64,000 nucleotides of DNA from Branchiostoma floridae (lineage: Eukaryota; Chordata; Leptocardii; Amphioxiformes; Branchiostomatidae). The stretch is from NCBI RefSeq assembly GCF_000003815.2, contig NC_049990.1, positions 10,377,995-10,441,994 on the forward strand. Direction: 5' to 3'. The notes under the pieces were generated by a model. That model worked only from the letters and a program-made list of their open reading frames with translations, made no database searches and was not told where the DNA came from. The translations under genes and the position numbers were made by a program. Below, piece by piece: positions 20,386-55,900 of this stretch; position 1 is the first letter of the stretch, and every line of letters begins with the position of its first letter.

Positions 20386-23300
20386 TACAGATAGTTATCA
20401 TTTTTTAGGCGAAAGATGTGATGTATAATTTCATAAGCTTTTAACGTTAACCATAAAAAAACTTGTGTCTCCTTTCTTCTGTTTCCTCTTAACAGGGGGG
20501 GGGGGGGTAATGGCTGGATGTTAGGAGGGCAGCATAAATTTTCTTGCAAAGGTAGTCAAGGTCCACAAAGTTGATTAACCTCATCAGTATCATTCAATGT
20601 TTGAATATAAGAAGGACTTGATATTGATACTAGAAAGGCCGACATTTGCTAAGAGCAAATACAGCATATTTCAGCCATACCCCTTCCCACGCAACATTGG
20701 ACTGTTCCAAATCACCCCTGCGCAAAAATGGAACATCCTCTTAACAGTACATTATCCCCCAAAGTGGACTGGTATTGTGAATTGATTCCAGGTAAAAACA
20801 GAGCTTGCTTCTATTTTTCAGAAAATGACAATAATCACACCTTCCATTCAGAAAATTTTCATCATGACTGAAAATTGTTGAATGACTTCATGTAATGTCA
20901 TTAACAATTTTCAGTACGATAACTAGGTGTAAGTTTAAAAAAGTATAAGCTCCTTGTGATACCTTGTGATACTTGTGGGTACATTTATTATTGCAGTGAA
21001 CTTTTTTTATTCAAGTAGGGCATACGATTTAATAATTATCAAGCAGGTGCAGGTACTGTAGGAGCGTTTGTTTTCTTCAAGCTGTAAAACTGTTAAACTG
21101 TTTTACTTTGTATGCAATCAGCCATCGAGCCTATTCTTAATTAAGTTTAACAACTTTCTGCCAGACCCGGAAGATACGATTGAACCTTGTTCGAGGATTT
21201 ATTTTCGTCTGTCTGGTCAGTCTGTTCATACCCTGGCGCTGAGAGTGTTTTATTGGGCTGAAACTCTGGCAGTTTAAAGTTACTTACAATTTAAATGTTC
21301 AAAGTTTATGTCAAACAACAACAGCACTAGGAAATGTGGCCACTATAGACAGGTGGTCACTATAGAGAAAATGCTGATCTATTGACTAGGAGCCATACGT
21401 TACACATGATTTCAGTACACTGATCATTGATCATATAAACATTGCACAGGTAAGCCAATTGTTTAGATGTACAATTAAGTTCAAATAATTCTGAAGAGAA
21501 ATATTGATGAGAAAATAATCATTCTCGCCACTGTCTAACTTATAATTACGTATCAAAACTAAACGCAGATTTTCTAACTAACGCACCTTTCGCCGACTTC
21601 ATCAAAGGACCGCCGGCTATCAATCAAACACGGCTGTTGATTAGACTTAGAGTTTCAAACAGTCATGTGCTGTGTGCCAGTTGACAGCGAACTTCATGCT
21701 ACGTGATGTTTTACATTGCTTGGACCTTCTTTCCTACAGCGGTGCTTCTACAAAATATGTAAACTGTAACACTGAGTCCCACATGTTTTATAGAATAGAA
21801 TTTGACGCAGAACAGCGTTTTTTGCTGGGTATTTTTCTTGAAACATGTCCGTGGGAATATCAGCGAGGCGGCGACGTAGGGATATCAGACCGTCAACAAA
21901 AGTCGCACGGCGGCTAACGGCGCAGCGAAGATACTAGCGCTATAGATAAGCGCTTCAACTAAGGATGGCAACCCGTACAATATTTTTGTATACTGTTGAG
22001 CTAAGTAAAGTTTGTTGTTTATGAGGTTTTAGTTGTCTTTGAAGCTTTGACCCGAAATATTTTAAAGTCAAACTGCTGAAGAGAAGTAAGTGACTGCTAC
22101 GATTATCGTAGATATGGCCCTAAAAAACTTATAAAAGAAGCCTTCTCAATAGTCTAAAATGCAAGAGCTTCCGGGGGGGCTTCGCCCATATTCAATTATG
22201 AATATTAATTAGCCTTCGCTTTCCTCTTCACTGATTGGCTGAACCATTAATTGAATTAAGTCTTCCTGCCGGCTAGACGCAGGTGTAGATGTCGGCTCTG
22301 TGGGGTGAACGTCCGAAAGGTCATGGCATGGAGAACGAAAGAAAACCAATTTCCCCTAAAAAAAGTGCTGTAATTAAGCCTTTTACAGTACTTTATGCCA
22401 AACATTTTACTTGGATCATTTTACCAACTATCTTATGCCTATCTATACCAAATGTTACTCATACCAGGGTACAGGGGTGCAAAATATACCGTTATAAGAC
22501 CGTCAACAACAGTCGCACGGAGCTAACAGCGCAGCGAAAATACCATCGCTAGCGTTTCAACTTCGGATAACAAGTTATAAGTACTGTTGAACTCAGTAAC
22601 GTTAAAGTTTGTTTTTAGTTGCCTTTGACGGTTTGACCTGAAATAGTGTTACGCTAAACTCCTGAAGAGAAGTTAAGTGACTGCTGCGATTATCATAGAT
22701 ATGCCCCTAAGAACTGATACAATATAAAGCCTTCTGAATAGTCTAAAATGCGAGAGCCTTAGGCGGGCTTCGCTCCCCCTGGCGGGAACACTGCTATATA
22801 TACGGGATCATGAGGCCCCGCTTATGAATATTAATTAGCCTTTGGCCTCCTCTTCGCTGATTGGCTAGGTCTTTGATTCAATTAACTCTCCGGCTGACGC
22901 GCACAGGTGTGGCTCTGTGCGGGGTCACGGAAGGTCACGTCAGGAGGCCAAAAGAAAACAAATTTCCCCTCAGAAAAGTGCCAAAATTAATCATTTTAAA
23001 GTTGTTTATGTCAAAAATTTTACTTGAATCTTGTTACCAAGTATCTAATGCCTATCTATACCAAATTTCAGGTCATTTAATTGTAATACCAGGGTACAGG
23101 AGCCAAAAGTGTCCTTTTTTGGTCAAAAATTGGCCAAAAATCGCAAAAATAAGCATTTTGTTGCACTGTTCACCAAAAGTGTTATTGAATTTATATGAAG
23201 GGATTATCAAGGCACATCTGTGTCAAATTTCAGCTCATTCGGTTGCAATACCAAGGTACAGGAGCCAAAAGTGTCCTTTTTTGGTAAAAAATTGGTCAAA

Positions 23301-26300
23301 AAATCGCAAAAATAAGCATTTTGTTGTACTGTACACCAAAAATGTCATTGAATTTATATGGGGGCATTATCAAAGCACATCTCTGTCAAATTTCAGCTCA
23401 TTTGGTTGTAATACCAGGGTACAGGGGCCAAAAGTGTCCTTTTTTGGTAAAAAAATTGGTCAAAAAATCGCAAAAATAAGCATTTTGTTGTACTGTACAC
23501 CAAAAGTGTTATCGAATTTATATGGGGGCATTATCTAGGCACATCTCTGTCAAATTTCAGCTCATTTGGTTGTAATACCAGGGTACAGGGGCCAAAATAT
23601 ACAGTTTTGGTCTAAAATTGACCAAAAAATCTCAATAAAATCATTTTAGAGGCAGATATGAAAAAACTGAGAAAAAAGAATCAAGGTATTGGCCCATTCT
23701 ACCCCTGTGCCAAATTTCAGGTCATTCGGTCCAGGAACGGCGGAGATGAATCACTTTGAAGATTTGACAGGAGAAAGAAGAAGAAAGAAAGAAGAAACAT
23801 TACGAATACAATATATTTCACCATACTATGTATGGCTGAAATATAATTATAATGATAAGTCTTTTTATAGCTTTTACAACAAAATGTATGTTATATGATT
23901 GACATTGTAATGTAATTGCTGCATGTGTATTAATTTGTTCAACAATCTAGGCTGGTCACTCGCACACCAATTTTAACAGGTCTGAAGGTCTAAACACTAC
24001 ATTCTCAAGATCTGAGTCTGTTATTTCAGAATACAGAGCATCACCTGCCCCCAGTGGATATGGTCAGAGCCGTGGCCGTAGGGCTGCCAAGAAAAATAGA
24101 AGAAAAAGATCTGGAAAAAGTGGACAAGCACGGAAAGGGGGACTGACACAAAGATAGTAAGTACCTTGTTTTTCATTATACAAAATGTGTCACCAGATTA
24201 CCAGCAATTTAAAGTAAGGTGTATTGATGATGTGGTATTAAAAGAATTCTCTTGTTTTTTTTGGCTGTATCCATTTCATTCAAGCTTATCATATAACCTC
24301 AGAAGATGTAGATGGTAAAACTAAAAGGCCTCACAGCTCAGGGGTAATATGAAACTAATGAATTACTCTCAGAGCAAGTACCTTAGTTAAAAACCTGTTC
24401 TCTTTACTTCTCGTGAAATGAAATCAATGAGAACAGAAGAAAGCAGCTGTTGAAATACAGAGAACATGGCCTGGTGACTAATAGTCAACAGTGAAAAGTA
24501 AATAATGCTTTTTTGCTTCAAGCTCTTGGAAACTAGCCTGTGTATCATACTCCGTAGTAACCGCTGGCTNNNNNNNNNNNNNNNNNNNNNNNNNNNNNNN
24601 NNNNNNNNNNNNNNNNNNNNNNNNNNNNNNNNNNNNNNNNNNNNNNNNNNNNNNNNNNNNNNNNNNNNNNNNNNNNNNNNNNNNNNNNNNNNNNNNNNNN
24701 NNNNNNNNNNNNNNNNNNNNNNNNNNNNNNNNNNNNNNNNNNNNNNNNNNNNNNNNNNNNNNNNNNNNNNNNNNNNNNNNNNNNNNNNNNNNNNNNNNNN
24801 NNNNNNNNNNNNNNNNNNNNNNNNNNNNNNNNNNNNNNNNNNNNNNNNNNNNNNNNNNNNNNNNNNNNNNNNNNNNNNNNNNNNNNNNNNNNNNNNNNNN
24901 NNNNNNNNNNNNNNNNNNNNNNNNNNNNNNNNNNNNNNNNNNNNNNNNNNNNNNNNNNTTAATTTTATATCAAGTCATTTTCCAGTAATCCATATGGCGG
25001 ACCCCAGTCTGGTAACTCTGGGAATGTGCAGATGATTCCAGTGGTGCCATGGCCAGTAGCAGAAGTTTGCCGGGGTACAGAGAGTTGGGTGCACAACAAA
25101 GCACATTTCAACAGTGCAGGAGTGGGTGCTGAGGATTGCAAGAACAAAACAATCAAAGTACCAGGCCTAGGGGAGTTGATTAGCCAGGGTACAGAGACTC
25201 AGGTGCACAATACACTACAATATTCTAACAGTGCAGGATCCCGTGCTGAGGATGGCCATTACAAGTTTGATTTCAAAATCAAGGTATCAGCAAATCCAGA
25301 GTCACTTGGCCAGATTAAAGAGACTCAGGTGCACAACACAGTACATTCCAACAGTGCAGGAGAGGGTGCTGAGGATTGCAAGAACAATATCACAGTGCCA
25401 GAAGAGTTGATTGGCCAGGGCATGGAAACTAAGGAGGGTATAGAAATTCAGGTGCACAACACAGCACATTCCAACAATGCAGGAGAAGGTGCTGAGGATT
25501 GCAAGAACAATATCACAGAACCAGGGGAGATGATTGGCCAGGGTATAGAAACTAAAGAGGGTATAGAGACTAAGATGCACAACACAGTACATTCTAACAG
25601 TGCAGGAGAGGGTACTGAGGATGACATTGGCAAGAACAATATCATAGCACAAGCAGAGTTGATTGGCCAGGGTACAGAAACTAAGGTGCACAACATAGCA
25701 CATTCCAACAGTGCAGGAGAGGGTGCTGAGGACTGTAAGAGCAATATCACAGTACAAACAAATTTGATTGGTCACGGTATAGAAACTAAGGAGGATATAG
25801 AAACTAAGGTTCACAACACAGTAGGACTAGGAGAGGGTGCTGATGATTGCAAGAACAATATCACAGTACAAGCAGAGTTGATCGGTCAGGGTAAAGAAAC
25901 TAAAGTGCACAGCACAGTCCATTCCCACAGTGCAGAAGAGGGTGCTGAGGATTGCAAGAACAATATCACAGTACCAGTGGAGATGACTGGTCTGGGTATA
26001 GAAACTAGGGAGGGTATAGAGACCCAGGTGCATAACACAGTCCATTCCCACAGTGCAGAAGAGGGTGCTGAGGATTGCAAGAACAATACCACAGAACCAG
26101 TGGAGATGACTGGTCTGGGTATAGACACTATAGAAACTAAGAGTAAGATGCACAACACAGTACATTCCCACAGTGCAGTAGAGGATGTCCAGCTCAAGCT
26201 TGATTTCAAGATCACAGTACCAGCAGATCTGGAGTCGATTGGTCAGGTTAAGGAGACTCAGGTGCACAACACAGTACCTTCCAACAGAGCAGAGAATGTT

Positions 26301-26493
26301 CTGAGAATGGTCAGCTGTGCTGAGAATGGTCAGCTCAAAATCACTGTACCAGCCGATCCAGAGTCACTTGGCCAGGTTACAGAGACTGAGGCACACAACA
26401 CACTACTTTCCCAGACTAGTACTAGTGCTGAAGACTGTACTGAGGATGGCTGGCACAAAATCACAGTACGTACAGAGCTTAATGGGTGTGTGT

Positions 26494-26524
<31 letters not shown>

Positions 26525-29500
26525 TGAGTGGGTGGGTGAGTGGATTGGTTGCTTGAGTGAGTGAGTGAATGACTGAGTGTGAGTGAATGAATGAATGTTT
26601 AACATGTCTATTTAACATGTTTATTTAATGCCCAGCCTGCATGGGCACAGAAACTAGAAAACATTGTGTAGATTGACAACAAATGCATAATTGACTTGCG
26701 TTGTTGTTTGTCACTTTAGGTACTTCATGGAAAGAAATATGACAAGGAGTTGTTAACATTTCTGCTGAAGACAATGTGCCCAGTACCATTCCAGTTTACA
26801 GACGTAAGTTTAAGTTTTTAAACATAGAATGTTGAAATGTACAATGTTAGAATCATGGTAGAATGTTCATGGAATGTGTGTAAAGAGACTTTTTTGTAAT
26901 TGTCAACTGTACTTTAGACTCAACCTTTTCTTGGAACATACTTTCAGTTCCACTATGTCAAGTCTCGTCACATGGTTTTCTACGTTCCTGACAAGGCCAC
27001 AGCCGACGACCTCCAAAGTCTCAGCAGGAAAATCAAGACAAGGAATGGCAAGGTAAAGCCATGTAGTTTGGGCATGATGAAAATAAGAAATATTTTACCC
27101 TTTCCATTGAAAAAAAGCAAAGTAAGTACTAGTTGTTACATTGACCTGAGCTAAAGGCAGGGCAGGGCATAGTACATCTTACACAATAAAAGTTAAAGCC
27201 CTATTGATTTGGAACAAAAATGTCTTCTAGATTTTAGACTTGGGTCTGTAATAGCAAATTTGTTCTAGCAGTGCCACTGTCAACCCTTGAACGTAAATAT
27301 TTTCCAAAAAGTATGATTATAATACCATATTATCATTTATTACTTTTTTTACTAACATGATGAAGTGGTCATCATGTGTATGTGATGACAATAAACTTTT
27401 TGTGCCTTGTCCATTTACACACTAAATCAACATTGTTTTCCCCCTTAATTTTTAGCTTGTTATCGTTGCCAATCCTGAATTACCTAGAAGTCTCCAGGCT
27501 ATGGACCAGGCTACAATGGAGGCAATCAAAGTAAGATCTTACTAGTAATTCCACACATCATATCAGTTAGGTCTTTATCCACTCAAGTGACTATGATGTA
27601 AGTATTGTCCATCATGCTGGTTGTATACACCCCGGGATTATTGATGCTGCTTCAGTACTTTAAATTCACATATTTTTCCTCATGTGCTGTATTATGGAAT
27701 CCGATAGAATTATGAGAGTTCATGTTATCTGTAAAAAAATGTCCAAAGACTTGCAAAGAGTAGGAAGAAAGTAAATCTCTTGCTAGTCTTGACATTAGTG
27801 GACTAAAGTTCAAAGCTACATTGTATTCTATTTTTTTTTGAGTCTGAGTTTACATAATTTTCTTTTTGCAATGCAGCTTACTAGTAACTATATTTTGGTC
27901 TGTTTTGACAGCTGTGCATTCTGAAGAGATTTGATGCTGCCACCTCAACACTCAACCTGAGCAATCTGTATTGGGACACTGGTAAGACTGGTTTGTACTA
28001 TTCATCACAATTTATAAATCATTGAAACAATTTTATGTCTGGGAATGCTAGATCCAATGACTCCATAGAAATTATTTTTCTTTATAATTATAGTATCTCT
28101 ACTACATGTATGGTGCACTCATAGTCATATAGTGTACATGAATTAAAGGCATCATATTCATTATAATCATTTAAATATACATGTACTTGTGTTTCTTTAT
28201 AATAAAGTATTTTTCTTTCATAAGTTCATCTTCCAATACAGATGAACTTTCATGCTGAGTACTTTAACATGTTTATAAAGTCATTTTTGACACAATTTGT
28301 ACCAACAGAACTACAAGCACAGGACATCCATGTGGTCCTGAACCAGAAGTTTTACATGAACTCTGTCATTTCAATCATCATGGAGATTGTGCCAGTGGTG
28401 AGTCATTATTCTTAATGATATGTTTGTAATAATTCTCAAAATGATATCGATACTTACAGGAAATATTTCTTGCCTAGCTTTTCAAATCCATTGTCAAGCA
28501 CCATTCCTTTCCATGTATTTATACCACACTACTCTAGTGGACTTTAAACTCATTGCATGTACATGTACTTCAACTATAAGCATACTAGTCATGTCAAGGT
28601 GTTTTGGCTTTTGTACCAGGCTGGGAAGAAAACAGTTTATATATTTGCATGCTTGTGAGTGAGCTTCTGATATCCAGATATTCATTTTCTACTGACATCA
28701 TATATATTCAATAGTCTATTATAATTATCAATTAATTAAATCTATAAAATTTCATACATATTATTCCAGAGGTAAAGGATATCAGTTTGAAATAGCCTTT
28801 GCTGTGAAAATGTCCTGTTTTTCAGATTGATCACCTTGACATCAGTAACAATAGACTGTACAACCTGAACAGCCTGGCAGACTTAGTCTCCATCAGAGAG
28901 GGTGTCACCTCCTTGAACCTTTCTCAGAATCAGGTAGGGCATGTAAATGTGGTTACTTTTTTGTTAGTTTTATTTTGCATCAGGAGGTTTGAGAAATATT
29001 TTGAATTTGCAGTTAAAACAATTGTAGTACACTTGGCATGGAGAAGGATTGAATAGATAGTACATTTACTTTGTGTTGGTTTTGTTTTGCGTTAGGTTTT
29101 GGTGATACTTTGAAGGAAGGATTGAATGAATGAGTGTATGCATTTGTAGTCATACAAGGCAGAGTATTCACAAGGGTTAGAGAGGTCCCCATGAAAACCG
29201 CAAAATTGCACTATTTGATATAATTCCTCTTCTTATCCTACCAACTACAGAGTTAATAATTTATTGTTTAACTGTTTATTATCATTACCTCAGCTTGAAA
29301 TTGATTTCTTATCTAATTGTCTTTAGCATTATGCATTGATAGGATTATACCAGTCCTGTAGTAATCTTTAAGGTAGTAACATGAAAAACTAAATGCTTTA
29401 TTTTTCAGTTAAAGTGTGTTTCTGAACTGGACAAGATCAAGGCTTGGAACCTGACTATGCTCTGGATGAATGACAACCCATTGTGGAACAATTACTTTGA

Positions 29501-30414
29501 ACCCTCTACCTATTTCAGGTGAGAACTGGCTGGTATAACACTTGATGGGGGCTGGTCCTATAACACTTCGAAAGTTTGACGTGTTATTGAAGAACATTAG
29601 ACTTAGTAGTGTGCTGGAGGGCATCGTGTTTCCATAGTCAGATATTCATGGCAAGGACAGGATTGACTGCACTTAATATTACTCACAGTTTTAAATGTGG
29701 ACTGGTAACAAGTACCTTTGGAGGTTTCGATGCATTATACAGATCTGCTGCTATACATCTGAGTCAGTATTTGATGGGTCAATCCATTTGTCAATAAATC
29801 TTAGATATCCAGGTAACATTCAGCATACAAAATAAAACAGGCAAGTAGATGAATTAATGATAAGTCTTCAGATTTGCTTTAATATTGATAAGAAAATATT
29901 CATCATGAACAGATGATCATAGTGCTGTTTTGTAGCTTTAGGACTCCAGTGAAGCTTAGCCTAACAAAGCTCAGAGGTTGTGTGTTCTAAACCAAACTTG
30001 TATCTCCCCTGTAGCGATGTGAGGAAACGGTTCCCAAACATAGTCAGGCTGGTGAGTTGGTACATTCACAACTCTTGCTGAATACTTTTGAACTAACTTC
30101 TTTCTCTGAGTCAGTATGTTAATAGGAATGCCATTATTAGAATGTGCACAATATGCACTATAAGACGTGGGTACTTTTGATTTATTGTCTCCTTTAAGTC
30201 ATCTGATTTAGGTTGCAGTTTTATATAAGATGCAATTAGAATATTCCACAAGCATACAGAAACTGTTGATAACCCTTATTTTGGTATAAGAGCCACCTAG
30301 CACCTGCAATGTTTTATTAAATTCAATAGGACATGTGAAATGTGTGTAATAATGGTTGTGTTCTACATCTCTTCACAGGATGGACATGTGTACTCAGTGC
30401 CAACTGAATCATAG
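19325..30414 (+). CDS. NXF-like RNA-binding protein with repeat domain, lacking NTF2-like/UBA domains
   Basis: Proposed exons: 19325-19436, 20307-20369, 24030-24156, 24986-26465, 26720-26803, 26948-27052, 27456-27530, 27912-27981, 28309-28397, 28826-28933, 29409-29518, 30015-30051, 30379-30414 (TAG). All phases agree, giving 831 codons. Residues ~60-100 are basic (RGRRAAKKNRRKRSGK) and end in RYNPY, as in NXF1 before its RRM. Residues ~120-585 are tandem repeats. WHKITV and GKKYDKELL (588 on) open the NXF RRM, followed by CPVPFQF, FHYVKSRHMVFYV and VIVANPELP. Leucine-rich repeats follow (STLNLSNLYWD, DHLDISNNRLYNLNSL, TSLNLSQNQLK, LTMLWMNDNPLWNN, RKRFPNIVRLDGH). NXF1 exports mRNA from the nucleus; its NTF2-like domain binds NXT1 and, with the UBA domain, nucleoporins. 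Both are absent here, so an RNA-binding but not classical export role is inferred. Exons 1-2 are less certain than the rest; an N gap (24570-24958) lies in intron 3. Confidence 0.82.
20370..21867 (+). other. Intron 2 of the NXF-like gene, first part
   Basis: AT-rich intronic sequence with a G homopolymer run at about 20497-20507. No exon or repeat family recognised. Confidence 0.5.
21868..23060. repeat. Two ~600-bp tandem copies within intron 2
   Basis: About 21868-22480 and 22485-23060 share, in order, GACCGTCAACAA.AGTCGCACG, AACTCCTGAAGAGAAGT-like sequence, GTCTAAAATGC, TTATGAATATTAATTAGCC, TGATTGGCT and AATTTCCCCT. The second has a TATATATA stretch at 22795. They look like the 5' part of a non-autonomous element whose 3' part is the ~160-bp array that follows. 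Function unknown. Confidence 0.7.
23040..23740 (+). repeat. ~160-bp tandem repeat array (family B)
   Basis: CAAATTTCAG(G/C)TCATT recurs at 23062, 23224, 23397, 23551 and 23711, each followed by AATACCAGGGTACAGG and CCAAAA. A 225-codon ORF runs through the array only because the unit lacks stops in that frame; it has no recognisable domain. The same unit builds the arms of the palindrome at 34841-38636. After the last unit a purine-rich GAAGAAGAAAGAAAGAAG stretch and an A/T-rich tail end near 23850. Confidence 0.85.
24570..24958. other. Assembly gap (389 N)
   Basis: N run in the intron between NXF-like exons 24030-24156 and 24986-26465. The flanking exon phases (2 then 1) join in frame without it, but a hidden exon of length divisible by three cannot be excluded. 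Confidence 0.99.
24986..26465 (+). repeat. Protein-coding tandem repeat exon (~12 units of 32-45 residues)
   Basis: One 1480-base exon of the NXF-like gene, bounded by TTTTCCAG and GTACGTAC. The unit consensus is ETKVHNTVHSNSAGEGAEDC, then KNNITVP, xELIGQGIETKEGI. Unit starts are near residues ESWVHN, ETQVHNT (several), EIQVHNT, ETKMHNT, ETKVHN, ETKVHST and ETEAHNT. Most units are acidic and hydrophilic. The last unit ends EDGWHKITV, the first strand of the RRM. Confidence 0.9.
26485..26605. repeat. Microsatellite cluster (GT)n, G-run, (GAGT)n
   Basis: Alternating GT, a 14-base G run, then GTGA/GAAT repeats, starting about 20 bases after the repeat-exon donor. Confidence 0.9.
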
Positions 30415-32599
30415 TATCAATAGCACATTTGCATCAACTTCCTGTCGTTCCACTGGATGTGCCAAGTTCAGGAGTTGTTGACTGATCATGTTTATTGGTT
30501 TATTTGTTGTTTAATGGTTAATTGACTACATCATTAATTAAGACTTCACCATGCAATTTCTGAACTAGGTTTGTTACTCAGTGCAAAATGGGCATGTTCC
30601 CTTATATGTTTGTCATAAACAATGAATATACATGGCCTCAATTGGTTATTATTGGTAATCATGGTAAATTCGTTGTCAGCCCTACAACTTCAGATATGGC
30701 TAAATAGTCCTTTTTGACATTGGCAGTCTCTGCCACGTACAACACATTCTGTAAGCTGATTCTGTTCGTGTTGCAGTTAACTTTTCTGCACTGCAAATAA
30801 ATCTGGCTTCTCTTGAAACGAGGAATCATACTTATTTCAAAGTCAATCTATTCTACTATGATAATTGGGAAGTCAACAAGTTACACTGGTCACCTTAAAC
30901 ATGAGTTATATTCCATACTTCAACTATTTTGTTTCTGGATTGTGTCATGACATTGTGTAAAGTCTTGACTCACAAGATAATACATTGCAATAACATCTGA
31001 TTCAATACATACAGCATTTTGATTACCTGAATGAAAATGGAAGACCGTTTTTTGTGCGTGTGTGTGTGTTGTGTGTGTGTGTGTATTTGTGGTCATCATA
31101 ACATTTAAACCTCTGTATGGACTGTAATGACATTTGGTACAATATATGCAGGAAGGGGTTGGGAAGATGAAATTCAAGGTTTATATTGGGCCCCCTGGTG
31201 TGTGACATTGGTACTGCAACATAAGTTCTGGTTTCGTATCTTTTACGCATGGACATGCAATGATCTTGATATTTTTGTGACAAAATTAGCTTTTGAAGTA
31301 AGAAAGTTGTGTAGGTTTTGGTCCTCTATCAGATTGCTTTGAAACTGCAGGAGAGTTTTTGTAAACATTTGTAGGGGACAAGGAACAAAACGAGTTTTCA
31401 TGATATGCTACATACAAGACAGAAATGATAGCAAGATTTAAGGTCATCAAATATTTGAAGCGTGACCTTTCAGTGTTGCAGCAGATTTAGGCCCCACCCA
31501 CCCGTCGCCATCCATGTATGGTAGGGGAGGACATATTACCCAGTGGGACCAAATACATGTCACAGCCAACAACGGCCTTGACAGTAGGCCAAGTACCATT
31601 TCATTGGACAGCGATCGCACTGAGACCTAAACTGGATTAAAGCAACCCTTGACGTTATCATTTGAGTATCCAAGGCAAAATATCTGAAAGTATGACTGAA
31701 AGACAACGAAACACAAACTTAAACAAAGAGGTGAGAGATTCGTTTTAATCTGGTATGAACAGAATTGATTGTACCGTCGGATCGCTTGGCCGTAGCCTGG
31801 TCGCCACCCTAGTGGAATGGACACCTACAAGTAGCAATGTCGAAAATCCTGAATATTATGCTCACTGACCCTTGAGGAAATGACCCTACGGTGCACTGGT
31901 GAAAGTGTGATATAACCTCATTGACCCCATTTAGATACCATGACTCATCAACGTGACATCAAAGATATCCAAACAAAATCATTTACAGCAACCCTTTGCC
32001 TGAAGGCAACGTTAACAGTTTTAATTGAGTCTAAGCATAATAATATCGATGTTTCATATATATATATAAAGCATTAAGAGTATTTTACCCTGTCAGGCCA
32101 GTTCAACATTTTGGTGCTATTTTTCTCCCTTGCTGACCTTAAGGAATCCGTGCACAGTGCACCTGAGGCGATCACGTAGTCAGATGTTCACCGCGCACCA
32201 AATTGTCTCTGCCGCCGGGCAGACCTTGCTGAACCCCAGTACCATGACGTGCAAGCCACCAGCTCAAGGAAACGTCACAGTTCCCACGGAGTTTTAGGAC
32301 CCAAAAATCGATCTACAGGAACGAGTAAATACCTGGCCAGTAACTATAAGATATCCGTGCGGTTCTCAACTTTGAGATGTGTTTCGTGAAGTTCTGAAGA
32401 GTCGGCGACTACTTTGTGGGGAAGGTGAACGGGAAAAGTGGTATGGCGGCTTTGTGTTGACCATGACAAGTCAAGCGTTATACATTACATGTGAATATTT
32501 GGCAATGGCGATCAAGTCCTTTATGGCTTAAAACAACCACCATTTTGGAGGAGACCGCTTTTCCGTGGACGTTTCGTGACTCGTGGGATTGTTGAGGTG
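30415..32599. other. Intergenic region between NXF-like and MOLO1-like genes
   Basis: Contains a GT-rich stretch and a family A repeat (31050-31330), a TATATATATATAAAG near 32058 that could be a weak TATA box, and no recognisable exon. The NTF2-like and UBA domains expected for NXF1 were looked for here by eye on the plus strand and not found. Confidence 0.5.
31050..31330 (+). repeat. Interspersed repeat family A, copy 4
   Basis: (GT)n start, GTGGTCATCATAAC, TGTAATGACATTTGGTAC, GGGTTGGGAAGATGAA, GGGCCCCCTGGTG and ATTGGTACTGCA, matching the copy at 7945-8130. Confidence 0.7.
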
Positions 32600-34199
32600 A
32601 TGATTATATTGATTTTTGTATTGTCTGTGGCTGTGGACACTTCAGTTTACGGCCAAACAATTGTTCGCGATGGCGCTGCCACAAGTACGCCTACACCACT
32701 TTGGTCGTCATCCAAACCACAGGCAGGTGTCACTAGTAGGGCCACAGCGTCATCTTATAACAGAACTACCATCATCCGTACAGTCTCTACTGACAGAAAT
32801 ACTGCAGCTGATACTGCAGTTTCTGCTAAAACTAGAACTACACCTTTGGTGAACCGTTTACAGTCTACCACAAGGTCCAGTCGCAGATTGATATCAACCG
32901 AAGTCACCCGAACGTCTAGGAAGGTCTTGCCGAACAGAACTACGGGGATGCTTTTTAGGGGATCCGATACGACAACGAGAAGACTAACCCACCGACAACA
33001 GGCTACCGAATCAAGTCTTGCGACTATAAGGTTAATTACAACAAGTTCGACAATCTCTTCCGCCCCAACGACCGCAAAACCCTCAACTACGAAAATGGTG
33101 AATCCTACAACAAAGTCTTCCACACCCCAGCCATATACTACATCAATACGAGGTATCATCGAACGACAGACCACCGACACAAATTCCAACACCGCACCAA
33201 GAAAAACTACCCGCCGGCGACACACAACCGACCCCAGTCGACGGACGACGAAAATTCCGACGACGAATATCGCAGACTCGACTGCCTCGCTGAAATTATC
33301 GTCTGCGGCTCTTGATCCAACTGTGACAAACACAAGTGGACGCAATTCCATAGGCTTTAGTCGAATAAGTACAACTGAAGTTGTAGAGACGACCACAACG
33401 CCCGTCTCTACCACCCCGCTCGACCCTACCCGAATGATTCCCGACACATATGTCTGGAACCAAAGGAACAGACACATCTACCCCAACCCACGGACAGAAC
33501 CCACACGATGTCGAAGGACCGGCCCTTCTTGGGTCTGCGATCCTAGTGGATTGTTCACTACTGAGCAAGGTAAAGTTACAACATATTCTTGTAGCACTGT
33601 GTGTCACCTTAGAAAGCTTTGAATATGCTTATTTGTGTGTGAAAGTAAGGTGTAATTTCTGCCTAAGCACCAACTTGGTATTAAGTGTTAATAAAGTGTA
33701 ACGTTACATATTACCATTAACTTGTGGTTACAAATAAGAAACAGTCTTAACTAAGGCTAAACAATGGGATTTTCAGAAATCACCGCATTGACCTGTTATT
33801 CAACAGTTGTCCTCCGGCAGTTTTGTGAACTGTAATTATGGTCGTTGACTTGGCGACCTTAATTGACGCACTCTTAAACTAAAAGGGCAAAATATCACCA
33901 GGCTTGATCATTTTCTGATCTCAGTCAAGTACCTCTCCTGTACTTTCCACGCTCGTGTAAATAGTATCCCAGGGTAACACTAAATTGGTGTCCAATAGAA
34001 AAAAAGAGAGGGGGGGTGTGTGTGATCCAGAGAAGGGCAATTGACCGGGACCTTGCAGAGATGGGTTGCGGATGGGAGGGGGGCTCTATGGACAGCAAAT
34101 AAAAAGACTGTAGAAGCCACTGAAACCTGACTCTGTGCTAAGCATACGACAAGAATAATTATGTGTGTGCTGTGCATTTGTATATGTGAGCATGTGCGA

Positions 34200-34246
<47 letters not shown>

Positions 34247-37200
34247 TTGTGCCTTTAATTTTACCTGTGTTTATATGCCTCTTCCTATGTGTGGCTGTGT
34301 GTGTGTTGTTTGTGAGTGCGTGAGCATATGTGAGCCGGTGTGTGTGTCCTTTTATTTGTGTATCTATGTTCTCGTGTGTGTATGTGGTTGTGTTTCCTGT
34401 TCTGTTCTGCTTTTCATTTCATTTCATTTCATTCATTCATTCGTTCATTTATTTATTCATTCCCGTCACCTCTTACAGTTGACGAACTAGACGACATCTT
34501 GACATCGACTTCATTGCAAAGTGAATGTCCCTGTAACGAACACTGTCATCACCGTACCTACGGGTTTGTGGTCACACTGGCCATTCACTACCGATACGAC
34601 CCGTGAGTACACACCATACGCTTCTTTCAGGGTTGATCACGAGGACGCATGTATTGTGCCAGGCATTTGCAAATAGGCGCAAACCAGCGCCAGTTGCCCC
34701 AATGTGTCATCCGAAATTGCGAATTTGTCCTAAATAGTCCATTTAATAAAGGCAAAATCAAAGTCGCAATTGCATGTAGTAAAATGGCGCAAATGGTCGA
34801 CACAAATTGGCTCAAAGTGACGAAAACCAGTGAACATCCCTTAAGAGCTGATGTCTGTAAAAACCAAGCAAAATCAGAAAAAGTTGGCCAAACTCAAAAA
34901 ATCGATTTTCCTTAAATTTTGTGTGGTGGTAGGGCCTTGGTCCAAACCTACAAAAATGGCAAAGTTTTAGATCTGCGGTCACCGGTTGCCATGGCAACGG
35001 CCATTTTTCAAAATGGCGGATTTTCACCAAGAGAAGGCCTTGGTCGCGTCCAAAATAGGCCTCCTTTGGACTCCTGTAGCCCCCACAAATTAACAGATAT
35101 TTTATTGATTCTCGGATATGTTATTACCCATATTCTAATGAAAAAAATGATATATAGTGATGCTCAAAATGTTTTTGTAGTGAGGTGCAGCAGATGTTTG
35201 AAAATGATGTGTTTTCGTGAATTTCCAAAATTGACAAAAATCAATTTTTTGACCATTTTTATTGACCATTAGCTCATTTACAGGCAAATCAATTTGCTTG
35301 ATTTTTGGCACAGTTATAGTTTGAACCTTTGTATACATCATATGTAAAAAAAAGTTTGGGCCTTTTACGTATCGAACCGTGGTGGCCCCGAGAGTAAACC
35401 AATATTTCCATTTCAAGAAAATCGTAACCATAGAATTATTCCTGGAAAAACAGTCATAGCTTACCAAAAATGAATTTCAGTTTCATGTTATGTAGCAGAG
35501 GAACTTACCTATCACTTATAAAAGCAGGGTTGTTCTAGATTTTTTTATAATTGCCTTTAAAATGATTTTATTGAGTTTTTTTTGTCATTTTTAGACCAAA
35601 AAATGTATATTTTGGCCCAAGCACCCTGGTATTGCAACCAAATGACCTGAAATTTGGTATAGGAATGTCCTGGACAAGTACACAGATGGATTGATAACTG
35701 GTTTGCCATGTAATAGAACAAAATGCTGAATTTGGTGACTTTTTTGTGGCATTTTCGGCCCAAAAAGTACATTTTTGGCCCCTGTACCCTGGTTTTACAA
35801 CCGAATGCCCTGAAATTTGGTATAGGAATGCCCTGGACACATGCGCACATAGATTCAATAACCATTTTGGCATACTGTTCAACAAAATGCTTAATTTTGT
35901 GATTTTTGGTTTATTTTTTTCCAAAAAAAGTACATTTTTGGCTCCCATACCCTGGTTTTACAAGCAATGCCCTGAACATACATGTATGCGCACATGGATT
36001 CAATAACATGTTTTGCATACAGTACAACAAAATGCTTTATTTTGAACTTTTTGCCATTCTTTTTTCCCAAAATCATTTTCGCTCCTGTTCCCTGGTTTTC
36101 CAAGTAAATAACCGGTAAAAATTTGGTATAGGAGCGCCTTGGAAATGGCTTTTATAGCCCGTTTTTGCATACAGTGCAACAAAACGCTTAATGTTGTACT
36201 TTTGGGTCATTGTTTTACCCAAAGTACATTTCTGGCTCCTGTTCCCTATTAGGCATTACAGGCAAATGACCTCCTAGACGCCTGTAACCCCCACAAAGTA
36301 AGAGATATTCTATTGATTCCCGTATATGTTATTACCCATATTTAGTAATAAGAAAAGTGATATAAAGTTATACTCGAAAGTTTTTTGTAGTGAGGTGCAG
36401 CAGATGTTAAAAGATGACGTGTCTTTGTAAATTGCCAAAAAGTTTCAGAATTTCAGATTATTTAGTTGGAAAAACAGGGTACAGGAGCCAAAATGTTTTT
36501 TTGGGGGGGGGTAAAAAAAATGACAAAAAACACACAAAATTCATCATTTTGCTGTACTGTATGACAAGCATTCGGCTCGAAACCGAGAGGTGGCGGGTTC
36601 GAATCCGACTGCTGTGTCACCGATCTTGTGCCCTTGGGAAAGGCACTTTACATGACTTTCCTCACTTAACTCAGGTTTAAATGAGTATCTAGCTTCGGCA
36701 TCTCAAAGATGTCCACGTTCAAGGTTCAAGGTTCTAGCTTCGGCTAGTGGCCTTGGCGGGGCTTTGTGGCCGAGACAAGCCTTAGGGGCATGTTCGGGCA
36801 TGACGCACCCGCCATGACACACGAGTTGCGCGATCGGGGGTAGGAGGAACCCCTCACATCCTTGGTCGGAAGTCCTCCTAGGAGACGGAAACTCCAAATA
36901 ATAAACCTGCATCTGCTGAGGCCGTCTTACGTGGCAAACAGTTCTGTCCCTGTATGACTTAGTGCGCCAGTAGACGAGAGGGTGGAGAAGGGAGTGCACA
37001 CCCCTCCTTCACCTTAAAAATAGTCACGTGCAGGCCAGGCAGACTGGTCGTCTAATCAACCTTTTCTGCCTACCATTGATCTTCGGATACGAAGAAACAG
37101 CCATCATCATGCCAAAATTATTATTGACTCTATGTGCGCATGTGTCCAGGGCATTTCCATACCAAATTTCAGGTCATTTAGTTCTAAAACCAGGGTTCAA

Positions 37201-40200
37201 TGGGCCAAAAATGTACTTTTGGCGCCAAAAATTACAGAAAGAGCCAAAAATGTACTTTGGGTAAAACAATGACCAAAAATTACAACATTACGCGTTTTGT
37301 TGCACTGTATGCAAAAACGGGTTATAAAAGCCATTCCCAAGGCGCTCCTATACCAAATTTTTACCGGTTATTTACTTGGAAAACCAGGGAACAGGAGCGA
37401 GAAATGATTTTGGGAAAAAAGAATGGCAAAATGTTCAAAATAAAGCATTTTGTTGTACTGTATGCAAAACATGTTATTGAATCCATGTGCGCATACATGT
37501 ATGTTCAGGGCATTGCTATACCGAATTCCAGGTCATTCATCAGTTGTAAAACCAGGGTATGGGAGCCAAAAATGTACTTTTTTGGGAAAAAATTAAGCAT
37601 TTTGTTGAACAGTATGCCAAAATGGTTATTGAATCTATGTGCGCATGTGTCCAGGGCATTCCTATACCAAATTTCAGGGCATTCGGTTGTAAAACCAGGG
37701 TACAGGGGCCAAAAATGTACTTTTTGGGCCGAAAATGCCAAAAAAGTCACCAAATTCAGCACTTTGTTCTATTACATGGCAAACCAGTTATCAACCCATG
37801 TGTGTACTTGTCCAGGACATTCCTATACCAAATTTCAGGTCATTTGGTTGCAATACCAGGGTGCTTGGGCCAAAATATACATTTTTTGGTCTAAAAATGA
37901 CCAAAAAAACTCAATAAAATCATTTTAAAAGCAATTATAAAAAAAATCTAGAACAACCCTGCTTTTGTAAGTGATAGGTAAGTTCCTCTTCTACATAACA
38001 TGAAACTGAAATTCATTTTTGGTAAGCTATGACTGTTTTTCCAGGAATAATTCTATGGTTACGATTTTCTTGAAATGGAAATATTGGTTTACTCTCGGGG
38101 CCACCACGGTTCGATACGTAAAAGGCCCAAACTTTTTTTTACATATGATGTATACAAAGGTTCAAACTATAACTGTGCCAAAAATCAAGCAAATTGATTT
38201 GCCTGTAAATGAGCTAATGGTCAATAAAAATGGTCAAAAAATTGATTTTTGTCAATTTTGGAAATTCACGAAAACACATCATTTTCAAACATCTGCTGCA
38301 CCTCACTACAAAAACATTTTGAGCATCACTATATATCATTTTTTTCATTAGAATATGGGTAATAACATATCCGAGAATCAATAAGATATCTGTTAATTTG
38401 TGGGGGCTACAGGAGTCCAAAGAAGGCCTATTTTGGACGCGACCAAGGCCTTCCCTTGCTGAAAATCCGCCATTTTGAAAAATGGCCGTTGCCATGGCAA
38501 CCGGTGACCGCAGATCTAAAACTTTGCCATTTTTGTAGGTTTGGACCAAGGCCCTACCACCACACAAAATTTAAGGAAAATCGATTTTTTGAGTTTGGCC
38601 ACCCTATGCTTGGTTTTTACAGACAGAGCCTCTTAATCATTGCAAATCTCTTCTTTGCTAAATCTACAATCTTTGCACATTGCTTTAGTGTTGCAATTAT
38701 CTTGCATCGAAAGTGAGAATGTGACCATTTTGTTTGTCTTCTTTGGCCCCATACGGAAATGCGTCGCACATCGTGACGGCAAGAGAAAATTGGATCAAAT
38801 TTACAATGTTGGCTCAATTTCCTAGCGTAGTGTGCCGCGGTCCAGTGAGATATCTTCTTAGCATTCATCATAACGCGTGTATGTCTAGAAAGTACCACCT
38901 TGCATAACAATACCGCAAAAAGCCTCATAAAGCTAGTTACTAGTAAGTCATAAAGGGAGGCTAAGATCAAAATTTACCTATACAATCAAAATTTTCATAT
39001 GGAATCACAATAACAATGGTATATTTCACAAACTGCGCAGCTATTTAATGCGTGAACTATACTGTTCCATGCATTGCGGCTTGGACATGTAAATTATATC
39101 AACGCTATTTTTTGTCCGGATACAATACATAAATGTTGATTCAATCTCTAGAAGTTCATAGATAGGGGGTCTAGATGGTACTGAGTTTTGAAAAACAAAC
39201 AAAATAGACTTAACTTGCTACAAAGATCAATCGAATCATGCTAATAGGTGAATCCAAAAAGAATCATTAACGGTCAATGGTTTTGCACAATGAAGCACAT
39301 TCTTCTGGTAGGTGGGTTCCCATGACACTGGGGTTAATGCACTTACGATTACCCCATGTTGCCATATGTGGCTGTTGTTATGTGTTAGTCTCACAAAACC
39401 ATTTAAAGTTAAGTCTTCCGTTACTTATTCGTCGTACGATGGGTCTACAACGGCATTCCCAGGATAGTCGTGGACGTGTCGTGTAAACTTCAGCAGTCGG
39501 AAGAGAAGGTTGTTGTGGATAATCATTGACGGTTGTACCAACTGCCTCCTTAAAAATTCCAAGAAAAAATGTCGTACAAAAATGACGTTGCCTGTTGAAG
39601 ATTTGTACATTTGAAGAAAAAAAGGGTAAAATTGCCACCAAAGTCACCAAAGTCGATGAATAATAAGTCAAAATGTTGTTTATTGGATTCCTTTCTAATT
39701 ATTTCCTGCATGTCAGCGCATGCCTGGGGCACGTTTGGTGATACATTCCAAGCAGAGGTCGTGTTTCCTGTCAGAAAAAGACGGCATATAAGAGAAAGGT
39801 CACAATTTCCCCCATCAACCTCTGCTTGGAGAGTAGTTTGATGGGGAAAATCGTGACCGTTTCTTACATGTACATGCCGTCTTTTTCTGTCAGTTGTTGG
39901 GGGTATGCCTGGCAGAAGAAGACGGCATATAAAGAGAGAGCTCACAATTTCCCCATCAACTTCTGCTTGGAGAGTGGTTTGATGGTGAAAATCGTGACCT
40001 TTTCTTACATGCTGTTTTTTTTCTGTCAGTTGGTGGGTATTGCTGACAGAAAAATCTGCACGTGAGAAAAAGCTCACGATTTCCCCCATATAGCTCTATA
40101 ACGTTAGCTACTTGGGGAGTAGTTTTGTGACACGTTTGTATCGTCTGCAGACACGTTTGTACCATCTGCAGCTCACGATTTCCCCATCAACCTTTGCTTA

Positions 40201-52900: not shown

Positions 52901-55900
52901 TAATTTCTTGCACAAAAATTGGACTCAAATTTTGGGCCCGATAGGACAAGTGAATTTTAGAACACCTGTCCAAGCCTGCTGAGGAGACAAATTGGTATAG
53001 CCTACACTACAAGAGCAGGGCTTGAAATACCACCTGCACATGCAGGTTAGTGCAGGTAAAATTGGAGCTGTGCAGGTATTTCCGGTGTCTACATGCACCT
53101 AACCTGCACTGGTTCATGTACTGGGTTTCATACATCAATGCCTGGTGCAGGTAATTTTCAATGTTACCTGCACCAGTGCAGGTATGCAGAAAAAACTATT
53201 TCGAGCCCTGAAAAGTCCACGTACCTGTGATGTCGCCAGCATGGAGGTGTGAGGAGAGGCGGGTGTGGCAGGGTTGGAGTGGGAGGTGGGCGGAGTCATG
53301 GGGTTCATGGGGTGGTAGGCGCTGGGCTGGGTCCTGGGGAGGGGGGAGGCTCCTGTCGTCTGGTGGTGCAGCTGGTGCTGAGTCATGTACGTGTCCAGTT
53401 TGTCCATCCCTTAAGACGGGGAGAAATGGCAAAGGTCAATAAAGAATGCTATTTCCTGTAACATTATGTGCAGTACAGTAGAAGCCGCTTATTATTACAC
53501 ACTATTTACCAGCGTATTTTGTGCAATTATCCGCATGGTGCAATAATGCGAAGTTATCTAGCTGGACCGCCCTGGTTTGGGATTTTGGGATTCCATGTAA
53601 TAAACAGAAGTGTGTGGTAATCTGTTGTGCAATAAACTGGCTTCTACCGTACTACATATACAAAATGTCATGTAGAAGTACAAGCATATTTCCTTGGTTG
53701 GCAAGACAAAAAATGATTTTTCATAGCTACCATGGGGAATTCTATATGTTCAAAAGGGGTGCCATCCTACAAAGGCAGATCAGGCTATGTACGTCAGTAT
53801 ATGATACAAGGCACTGCCCCTGAGGTATTGCCAAAAATTATAAATTGGGAGCTACCAAATGGAGGCTACATGGGGTGGTTAAGCTCAGATACACCTAGAG
53901 TCATTGTCTGACTGACAACCGAGGGGATGAAGGAAACAATTAACAGTCACCAAACACAAGTGTATTTATCTACAGTATATCTCCACCAAAGGGAGCGAAG
54001 AGGATTAGGTAGGTAGGTAGGTATACATACAATAGGAATGCAGGACATACCGATAGGTGACGGTGGGTTGTCATCTTCGCTTGCTGACCTGCGTCTGGAG
54101 TGAGCCATGCTGTCCTCAAACATGGACAGGAATGCTTTGAGACCCTGTGTGGGGGTGAAACCTTCCACTACCTGCAAACATACATGAATATGTTTCAAAG
54201 ACAGAGTCAACATGGCACTGGTTTGTATTAGATTACTAGGAGTTACATTTTTAACTATAGTGGAAAAATTAGATAAATCATACACAAAATTCAAGACAAT
54301 CAACTTATAATTTTTTTATATGCATTAGCATTTATTTCATATACATATTCAATACACATTTTAATCAACCGTCTAAGTATATGAACAGGTGTTCCCATGA
54401 TTGACATATGATCAGCACATGATCGGCACATGATCAGCACATGATCAGGACATGATCAGGACGTGAAAGTGAAAATTATAGGTTCCCTGACCTTGCTAAC
54501 ATCAAACAGGCTGTATGCTCCGTCCCGTATGGCGACCAGGTTCCTCCCGCGGCAGTGCACGTCCAGGCAGTAGATGTTTCGGAACGCGATCCTCACGTGG
54601 TCCGAAGACTGCGGCAGGATGGTGAACGTCTGCGTCGGACTGAGCGGTTTGTTCGGACAGCCCAAGATGGTGGTCTGTGGGAGGCGTATGATGGACTGTA
54701 GCGGGCTCTGGGTCTCGCACAAGACTTGGATGAGCTGTGCGATGTTATGGTGCGTGTTGAACTCTTCCTGTAGCTGTGACTGTACCACCATGTGACAGTT
54801 TGGGTTGTTCACCCTCCCCACCATCCCTAAACCAAGCTTAAAGCTACCGCCATTTCCTTCTGGAACCCACTGGATTTTAACCGTGCTGGATCGCCCCACG
54901 CCATAGCTCAGCGTTAGCCTCTTGTACGAGAATGACTTAACCTCCACCATTTGGAATAGCTGCCGGTTGGGGTCCTTGTAGTTTCTGGCAAAGTCCAGAA
55001 CGGTTGCGTACATCTCAGCGATACTGTGCCAGTCCTGCATGAACTTGTCCATCACGAGTGTGATGTTTGCGTTCTCTGTGTTGTTACTAGTGCTGGCTTC
55101 AGATTCTGGCTTCAGGCCGTCGTATGTGAAGTACACGTGGCGACTGCTGGTCTGTTCACGCTGTGTCGTGCTCACCAGAGGACAGTTGGCAAACACAAGC
55201 TCTGCCGTCCACACGCGGCTGGTCTTGCCCTGGAGGCGGAAGGTACAGCCCAGACAGTCGGACTTGAGCTTGAAGACGACGTGATCGGGAATCCCTCGCA
55301 GTGACGGCAGGGCAAGAAGCTTCACACTGAGGCCGACATCATACCCCTCACTCTGGACACCCTGGGGTAGACAACAGTGAACACAGAATAAATAGGAGCA
55401 CAGCATCTCAGAAAATTTGGGCTTAAGATTTCTGTACGAGTGTTCACAAACAATCAGTTTGTATGGTACCTCTGTATGCAAGACTAGTTTTTGCCCCTCT
55501 TGCAAATCCTAGATCCATCAACCCGTGGACTTTGTGTGTGAATGTGATGCTAGTTTCTGTCTCACCTGACATGGGATGCCTCTCCTGCCCAGCTCCTGAC
55601 AGATGAGTGGGATCTGGGTGTGAATGTGATGCTAGTTTCTGTCTCACCTGACATGGGATGACTGGAACCTGGGTGTGAATGTGATGCTAGTTTCTGTCTC
55701 ACCTGACATGGGATGAGTGGGATCTGGGTGTGAATGTGATGCTAGTTTCTGTCTCACCTGACATGGGATGAGTGGAATCTGGGTGTGAATGTGATGCTAG
55801 TTTCTGTCTCACCTGACATGGGATGAGTGGGATCTGGGTGTGAATGTGATGCTAGTTTCTGTCTCACCTGACATGGGATGAGAATGTGATGCTAGTTTCT

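Follow-up and report, generated by a model that had tools for sequence, protein, structure and literature searches.

In an NXF-like gene of Branchiostoma floridae, a single exon between the RYNPY motif and the RRM is filled with tandem repeats, the last of which runs into the first codons of the RRM. The locus raises the question from which piece of the gene these repeats were derived, and what they have made of the protein. The gene lies on the plus strand of the stretch of 64,000 nt that was analysed here as a whole (the window, on contig C12 of the assembly).

The NXF-like gene and its repeat exon

The following features were assigned, all on the plus strand and in window coordinates:

23951..24156, +, preceding exon; basic N-terminal region, open frame, donor ATA/gtaagt
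24986..26465, +, repeat exon; NPY, 12 tandem units, EDGWHKIT; phase 2 in, phase 0 out
24987..25043, +, unique 5' part of the repeat exon, NPYGGPQSGNSGNVQMIPV; homologous to the start of the paralogue exon (shuffle alignment); its right edge is set by unit homology and uncertain by a few codons
25044..26345, +, units D1-D11; each a VPxxELIGQGTET-like A part (KEGIET in some units), then a QVHNTVHSNSAGEGAEDCKNNIT-like B part
26346..26465, +, last unit, D12; its final codons (WHKIT) are the RRM start
26466..26719, +, intron; donor gtacgt, then a GT/G-rich simple repeat
26720..26803, +, next exon; VLHGKKYDKEL..., continues RRM strand 1
26948..27530, +, remaining RRM exons (26948-27052, 27456-27530)
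27912..30051, +, LRR exons (27912-27981, 28309-28397, 28826-28933, 29409-29518, 30015-30051); LRR_NXF1-5 match
30379..30414, +, last coding exon; DGHVYSVPTES-stop, directly after the LRR

Throughout the 11 modelled exons the reading frame is uninterrupted, and all ten introns are of the GT-AG type. The first of these exons (23951-24156) ends in R-Y (ta/t) and gave no Pfam match; the start and the upstream exons of the gene are outside the model. In the Pfam search the RRM was recognised as PF09162 Tap-RNA_bind (E = 4.8e-19, profile positions 1-75 of 80) and the LRR as PF24048 LRR_NXF1-5 (E = 3.3e-40, whole profile). The repeat exon, bordered by the acceptor ..ttttccag and the donor ACA/gtacgt, begins by completing the Y of RYNPY, a motif that is presumably present ahead of the linker in human NXF1 too. 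Its final codons AAA ATC ACA (KIT) stand directly at the donor and the exon at 26720 opens with GTA CTT CAT (V L H), so that WHKIT-VLHGKKYDK is read across the junction. The W.KIT of this segment, which we take to be strand 1 of the NXF RRM, aligns with WFKIT of human NXF1. A hypothetical join of 24156 to 26720 leads to an immediate TAG stop; thus an RRM protein in this frame cannot skip the repeat exon.

The preliminary description of this locus, made from the sequence alone, had noted about 12 repeats in this one exon, and 12 in-frame units are indeed found in 24986-26465. Cut at VHN, these are U1-U11 with 32-43 residues each and U12 with 26 residues up to the donor. Cutting after KIT gives 12 complete units, D1-D12, which measure 105-129 nt (35-43 codons), all of them multiples of three in length. 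D12 terminates at the splice donor, and ahead of D1 there remain 57 nt of unique sequence and the one base completing Y. The coding frame of the exon is free of stops, while the other two forward frames contain 39 and 26, and the head-to-tail copies within one exon, with the frame kept, make the array a coding internal tandem repeat. The last unit had been described as ending in EDGWHKITV. EDGWHKIT stands at the donor as stated, but it is the next exon (26720) that opens with the V, and among the units this V begins the next copy, so that it does not belong to the duplicated strand residues.

A profile of U1-U11 recovers U12 with E = 3.2e-9 and yields nothing below E = 1 in the window outside the repeat exon, which argues against a chance array. 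The search of the genome (513 Mb in 431 contigs) with the repeat exon gave at least one match, match counts being lower bounds; seven candidates were scored and the one returned was the window itself. The repeat exon alone found nothing credible among solved structures (one match, E = 0.24), and its three Pfam matches were all below their cut-offs. In the unit tree none of the nine inner branches is well supported. In the one assembly used, a gap of 389 bases (24570-24958) is situated in the intron just 5' of the repeat exon; since it lies so close to the exon, the assembly of the array is to be read with this caveat.

A repeat-free homologous exon in the same genome

By Pfam searches for RRM, LRR, and TAP_C a second NXF gene was located on contig C1 (31.348-31.367 Mb, minus strand), and 30 kb around it were taken for comparison. 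The genome searches for RRM and LRR recovered this paralogue and missed the window gene's own short exons; further NXF copies are possible. The other of the two LRR_NXF1-5 matches in the genome, L004, was discarded as an NXF copy, as it looks by eye like an unrelated LRR gene.

The linker exon of the paralogue (C1:31366808-31366970) is 163 nt long and codes for NPYGRPDSRRSNRPNNSGRGGRGRGGGYRDLDAPSTSHSDRSEGGDEDGWHKIT. No tandem array was detected over it. The earlier suggestion was to count units in amphioxus NXF paralogues; in this one the homologous exon is short and repeat-free. Both linker exons share their phases, with coding parts of 1 + 162 nt in the paralogue and 1 + 1479 nt in the window, and both end in EDGWHKIT, without a difference in this segment, at a phase-0 donor in the same position. 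At first comparison EDGWHKITV matched by 100% between the two genes, the V of the paralogue being intron GTC there. Within the tblastn matches, RRM and LRR are 59.1% identical over 230 codons with a dN/dS of 0.25, which indicates constraint on at least one of the two lineages. The genes differ in the array, restricted to the window gene, and in their 3' parts, as the paralogue runs past the LRR and has a TAP_C match downstream.

With the last unit left out, the D1-D11 profile found its best match within the 30 kb at the paralogue exon end (E = 0.001), i.e., 51 nt ungapped with 13.1 bits, in register to KIT. The maximum over 40 dinucleotide shuffles of the 30 kb was 9.7 bits, and the window with the repeat exon and its intron removed gave nothing above 2.7 bits. 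When the units were cut in the other phase (U1-U11), the paralogue exon end ranked first again, but only with E = 0.029, which falls short of the HMMER inclusion threshold. The D1-D11 match is limited to the B part; with the rest of the paralogue exon shuffled, the score hardly changes (9 of 200 were as good or better). Compared to an ungapped B profile of five units (U3, U4, U6, U8, and U9), the 69 nt at the end of the paralogue exon received a higher score than all 184,287 other positions and all 5000 shuffles. Synonymous recodings were as good in 182 of 5000 cases for the 69 nt, in 470 for the first 45 nt alone, and in 431 for EDGWHKIT alone. The match is thus only moderately unusual against recodings, and part of it could be at the protein level. 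The window's own last unit fails to match this ungapped profile upstream of EDGWHKIT (68 of 5000 shuffles and 4939 of 184,383 positions were as good); it holds an insertion there, and its alignment needs a gap.

When its array is reduced to a single unit, the repeat exon aligns end to end with the paralogue exon (global alignment, mean over 12 units). No shuffle among 300 was as good for the 5' part, and none among 300 for the B part; with the A part shuffled alone under a shared permutation, 2 of 500 codon shuffles and 1 of 500 base shuffles were as good or better. Except for D7, which aligns poorly (score -13), the units score between 6 and 35 against the paralogue exon. The 5' part plus D8 amounts to 162 nt, the coding length of the paralogue exon.

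The duplicated piece and the origin of the array

For the A part two sources were considered. In the paralogue exon the 42 nt ahead of the B part resemble the A parts in global alignment better than all of 1000 codon shuffles. The sequence compared here is short, and local tests gave weaker results: the best unit was equalled by 30 of 1000 codon shuffles over 42 nt, and by 129 of 1000 over 93 nt, which is not significant. Alternatively, the duplicated segment crossed the donor, each unit consisting of exon tail (B) and intron head (A), so that a third of each unit would once have been intron. This was favoured early, since the U1-U11 profile alignment runs 20 nt beyond the donor, and these 20 nt, in register with the A part, were equalled by only 15 of 20,000 shuffles and by 4 of 7639 GT-starting positions, with the nine other donors of the window gene scoring far lower. 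An origin in the intron head was not confirmed by controls with other methods or by the paralogue. The intron head was equalled in 5 of 200 cases with nhmmer and in 136 of 1000 with local alignment, in 175 of 20,000 after removal of GTAC, and in 628 of 5000 with the register free by 3. The intron head of the paralogue does not resemble the A part (945 of 1000 and 67 of 300 as good), in contrast to its exon. A further intron match at about 26643-26656 was not significant (28 of 500 shuffles and 24 of 609 window 100-mers as good) and was dropped.

As the paralogue exon resembles the A part and its intron head does not, we favour an exonic unit of 35-43 codons, which would comprise the last two thirds of the exon and end at its 3' end, and regard an intronic share as unlikely. 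GTAC is common to the start of the intron and to several unit starts, while the longer resemblance is weak; it is possible that GTAC marks breakpoint microhomology. If the unit is exonic, the in-register likeness of the intron head must be called GTAC microhomology plus chance.

The 24 nt of EDGWHKIT fit the profile of U1-U11 better than all of 5000 shuffles and than 4998 of 5000 random synonymous recodings (drawn uniformly over codons, with no usage weighting), and none of the 61,569 other plus-strand positions of the window was as good. Narrower profiles were equalled by 19 (U3-U9), 198 (U2, U10, and U11), and 216 (U11) of 5000 recodings, and WHKIT alone (15 nt, against all 11 units) by 104 of 5000. 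At the protein level the gene's own WHKIT compared to the units was not significant (1805 of 2000 shuffles as good), and a link between KIT and the RRM strand on that ground by itself was given up. Human WFKIT was equalled by 77 of 2000 shuffles. WFKITIP of the human protein matches U10 with 1 of 2000 shuffles as good; this was set aside as a link to KIT, since its P pairs with a residue that is not part of the duplicated strand, and the shorter WFKIT only reaches the 77 of 2000 given above. Judged by these comparisons, the KIT link is weak on protein alone, and DNA and paralogue carry the case.

The preliminary description had proposed that the segment leading into the RRM, strand residues included, was amplified. 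Its direction is supported by the repeat-free C1 exon with the same EDGWHKIT donor and by the profile match to that exon, and the continuity of the units with the RRM strand by the W.KIT alignment and the fit of EDGWHKIT. As to the segment itself, it is mostly the preceding linker that appears to have been duplicated, and the share of the RRM is restricted to its last few codons (KIT). We take the strand as older and the array as newer, because the short exon has EDGWHKIT and the human protein WFKIT.

That an array of unrelated origin formed within the exon or was brought into it, and that its end converged on the RRM strand, is extremely improbable: it would agree with the non-significant protein comparison of WHKIT, but not with the likeness of EDGWHKIT to the units at the level of codons (2 of 5000 recodings as good with the 11-unit profile), with that of the units to an array-free paralogue exon, or with the lack of any other repeat copy among the genome matches listed.

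Considering these observations together, we think it very likely that the window gene arose as a second NXF1 copy and diverged, that amplification of an exon tail gave it a swollen linker, and that its RRM-LRR protein acts outside export. After the copies separated, the last two thirds of the linker exon, up to its exact 3' end, would have been tandemly duplicated and have grown to 12 copies, presumably via slippage or unequal crossing over. Every copy would hence end in a version of the first RRM codons (KIT). The last copy alone would be joined by splicing to the remainder of the RRM, whose first strand it provides, and the other eleven would have been free to drift as linker. The outcome would be a long spacer of about 490 residues, acidic and probably disordered, which separates the basic N-terminal region from an intact RRM-LRR.

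Due to the fact that each unit copies the exon 3' end, former splice-donor contexts follow one another along the array, all in the same phase, and 9 of the 12 unit ends still read on into GT. If inner ends were spliced to the next exon, a ladder of linker lengths would result, in which the start of RRM strand 1 is rebuilt exactly or nearly, e.g., as DFKIT-VLHGKKYDK, behind a shorter linker. We consider such splicing very unlikely; a G at donor position +5 is found in the last unit only, and thus the inner donors would be weak.

The protein and related systems

Including the 5' part, the linker of the window gene comprises 493 residues, compared to 54 in the paralogue. U1-U11 are acidic (70 D+E and 33 K+R in 434 residues), whereas the paralogue linker is RG-rich, and by charge-hydropathy the repeat exon falls on the disordered side. 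Thus the array probably lengthens an acidic linker that is predicted to be disordered. Unit dN/dS is 0.73 (interval 0.50-1.09) for U1-U11 and 0.55 (0.33-0.95) for U3-U9, by which measure the units are under weak constraint at most.

The window gene stops 11 codons into the exon where the paralogue continues DGHELPPPIAFDLESNTTLP toward its C-terminal part. From 30300 to about 31900, no Pfam match was obtained for an NTF2-like domain, the partner of NXT1/p15, in the three forward frames, nor for the nucleoporin-binding TAP_C (UBA-like) domain on the plus strand. The genome search for TAP_C gave one match, which is located in the C1 paralogue, downstream on the same strand; as evidence of absence this is weak, since the RRM and LRR of the window gene likewise escaped searches of this type. 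According to PMC4330393, the NTF2-like and UBA domains of NXF1 hold the FG-repeat sites required for pore passage. Given the stop after the LRR and that neither domain was found, the window protein is probably not an export receptor, and a general role in export is unlikely. Our best guess is that it acts via its RRM-LRR, binding RNA or partners without ferrying cargo through pores.

It might be argued that the gene is decaying into a pseudogene, with an array that has no role, as the C-terminal half is missing and the units are weakly constrained. Against this stand the ten GT-AG introns and the uninterrupted frame through 11 exons, unit lengths that are all multiples of three, and the RRM-LRR dN/dS of 0.25, an average over alignable codons only that includes the paralogue's own constraint. 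We hold decay to be improbable and prefer a gene with a role outside export.

Similar to NXF1/TAP, the window gene combines a Tap-RNA_bind RRM with LRR_NXF1-5, has RYNPY before the linker, and starts the strand with W.KIT; it differs in the linker of about 490 residues and in that neither an NTF2-like nor a UBA domain was found. For human paralogues, in-frame internal tandem repeats are described to lengthen low-complexity stretches between domains (PMC2812944). The array resembles these as far as in-frame tandem units alter a paralogue between globular domains, but differs in that its units stop precisely at the exon 3' end and repeat the first codons of the next domain. Drosophila Nxf2 is an NXF paralogue working in piRNA silencing (PMC6677536), and thus likewise an NXF duplicate that serves something other than general export, which for the window gene is presumed. 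In contrast to the window gene, Nxf2 keeps its NTF2-like and UBA domains, and a comparable array is not mentioned for it in the sections of PMC6677536 consulted.

Each step is of a known sort, linker repeats included, and the combination is unusual. A description of the window gene was not found in the open-licence literature searched, which says little given that scope. Neither the combination nor a donor-bounded unit carrying the edge of the next domain was met with in literature searches, which were not aimed at all of these jointly. This array is a clear case of a protein repeat with a readable source, as a single-copy exon of the same genome names the duplicated piece, its boundaries, with the end at a splice donor, and the reused domain edge. 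As an NXF paralogue whose linker is swollen and whose domains are RRM and LRR only, the window gene is a candidate for an NXF duplicate that has gone from bulk mRNA export.

Further repeats were observed in both genes' surroundings. In the paralogue (L006:6575-6904 on C1), an LRR exon has its end, together with the donor (..VPV/gtaggta), repeated into the intron as about 5.9 copies of a 56-bp unit that are 98% alike, a second tandem duplication at an exon end within this gene family. Its unit is not a multiple of three, and by eye the frame beyond the first donor soon hits a stop. Minisatellites with periods of about 152-163 bp are situated on both sides of the NXF-like gene (23062-23647, 35589-35976, and 37437-37725); by eye they look related (GGTACAGGAGCCAAAA type) and occur in both orientations. 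Of the neighbouring genes in the window, one (32495-33619, plus strand) codes for a protein that matches the MOLO1 domain and contains a long T/S-rich stretch, and another is MED14 with Med14 RM domains (54459-57665, minus strand).
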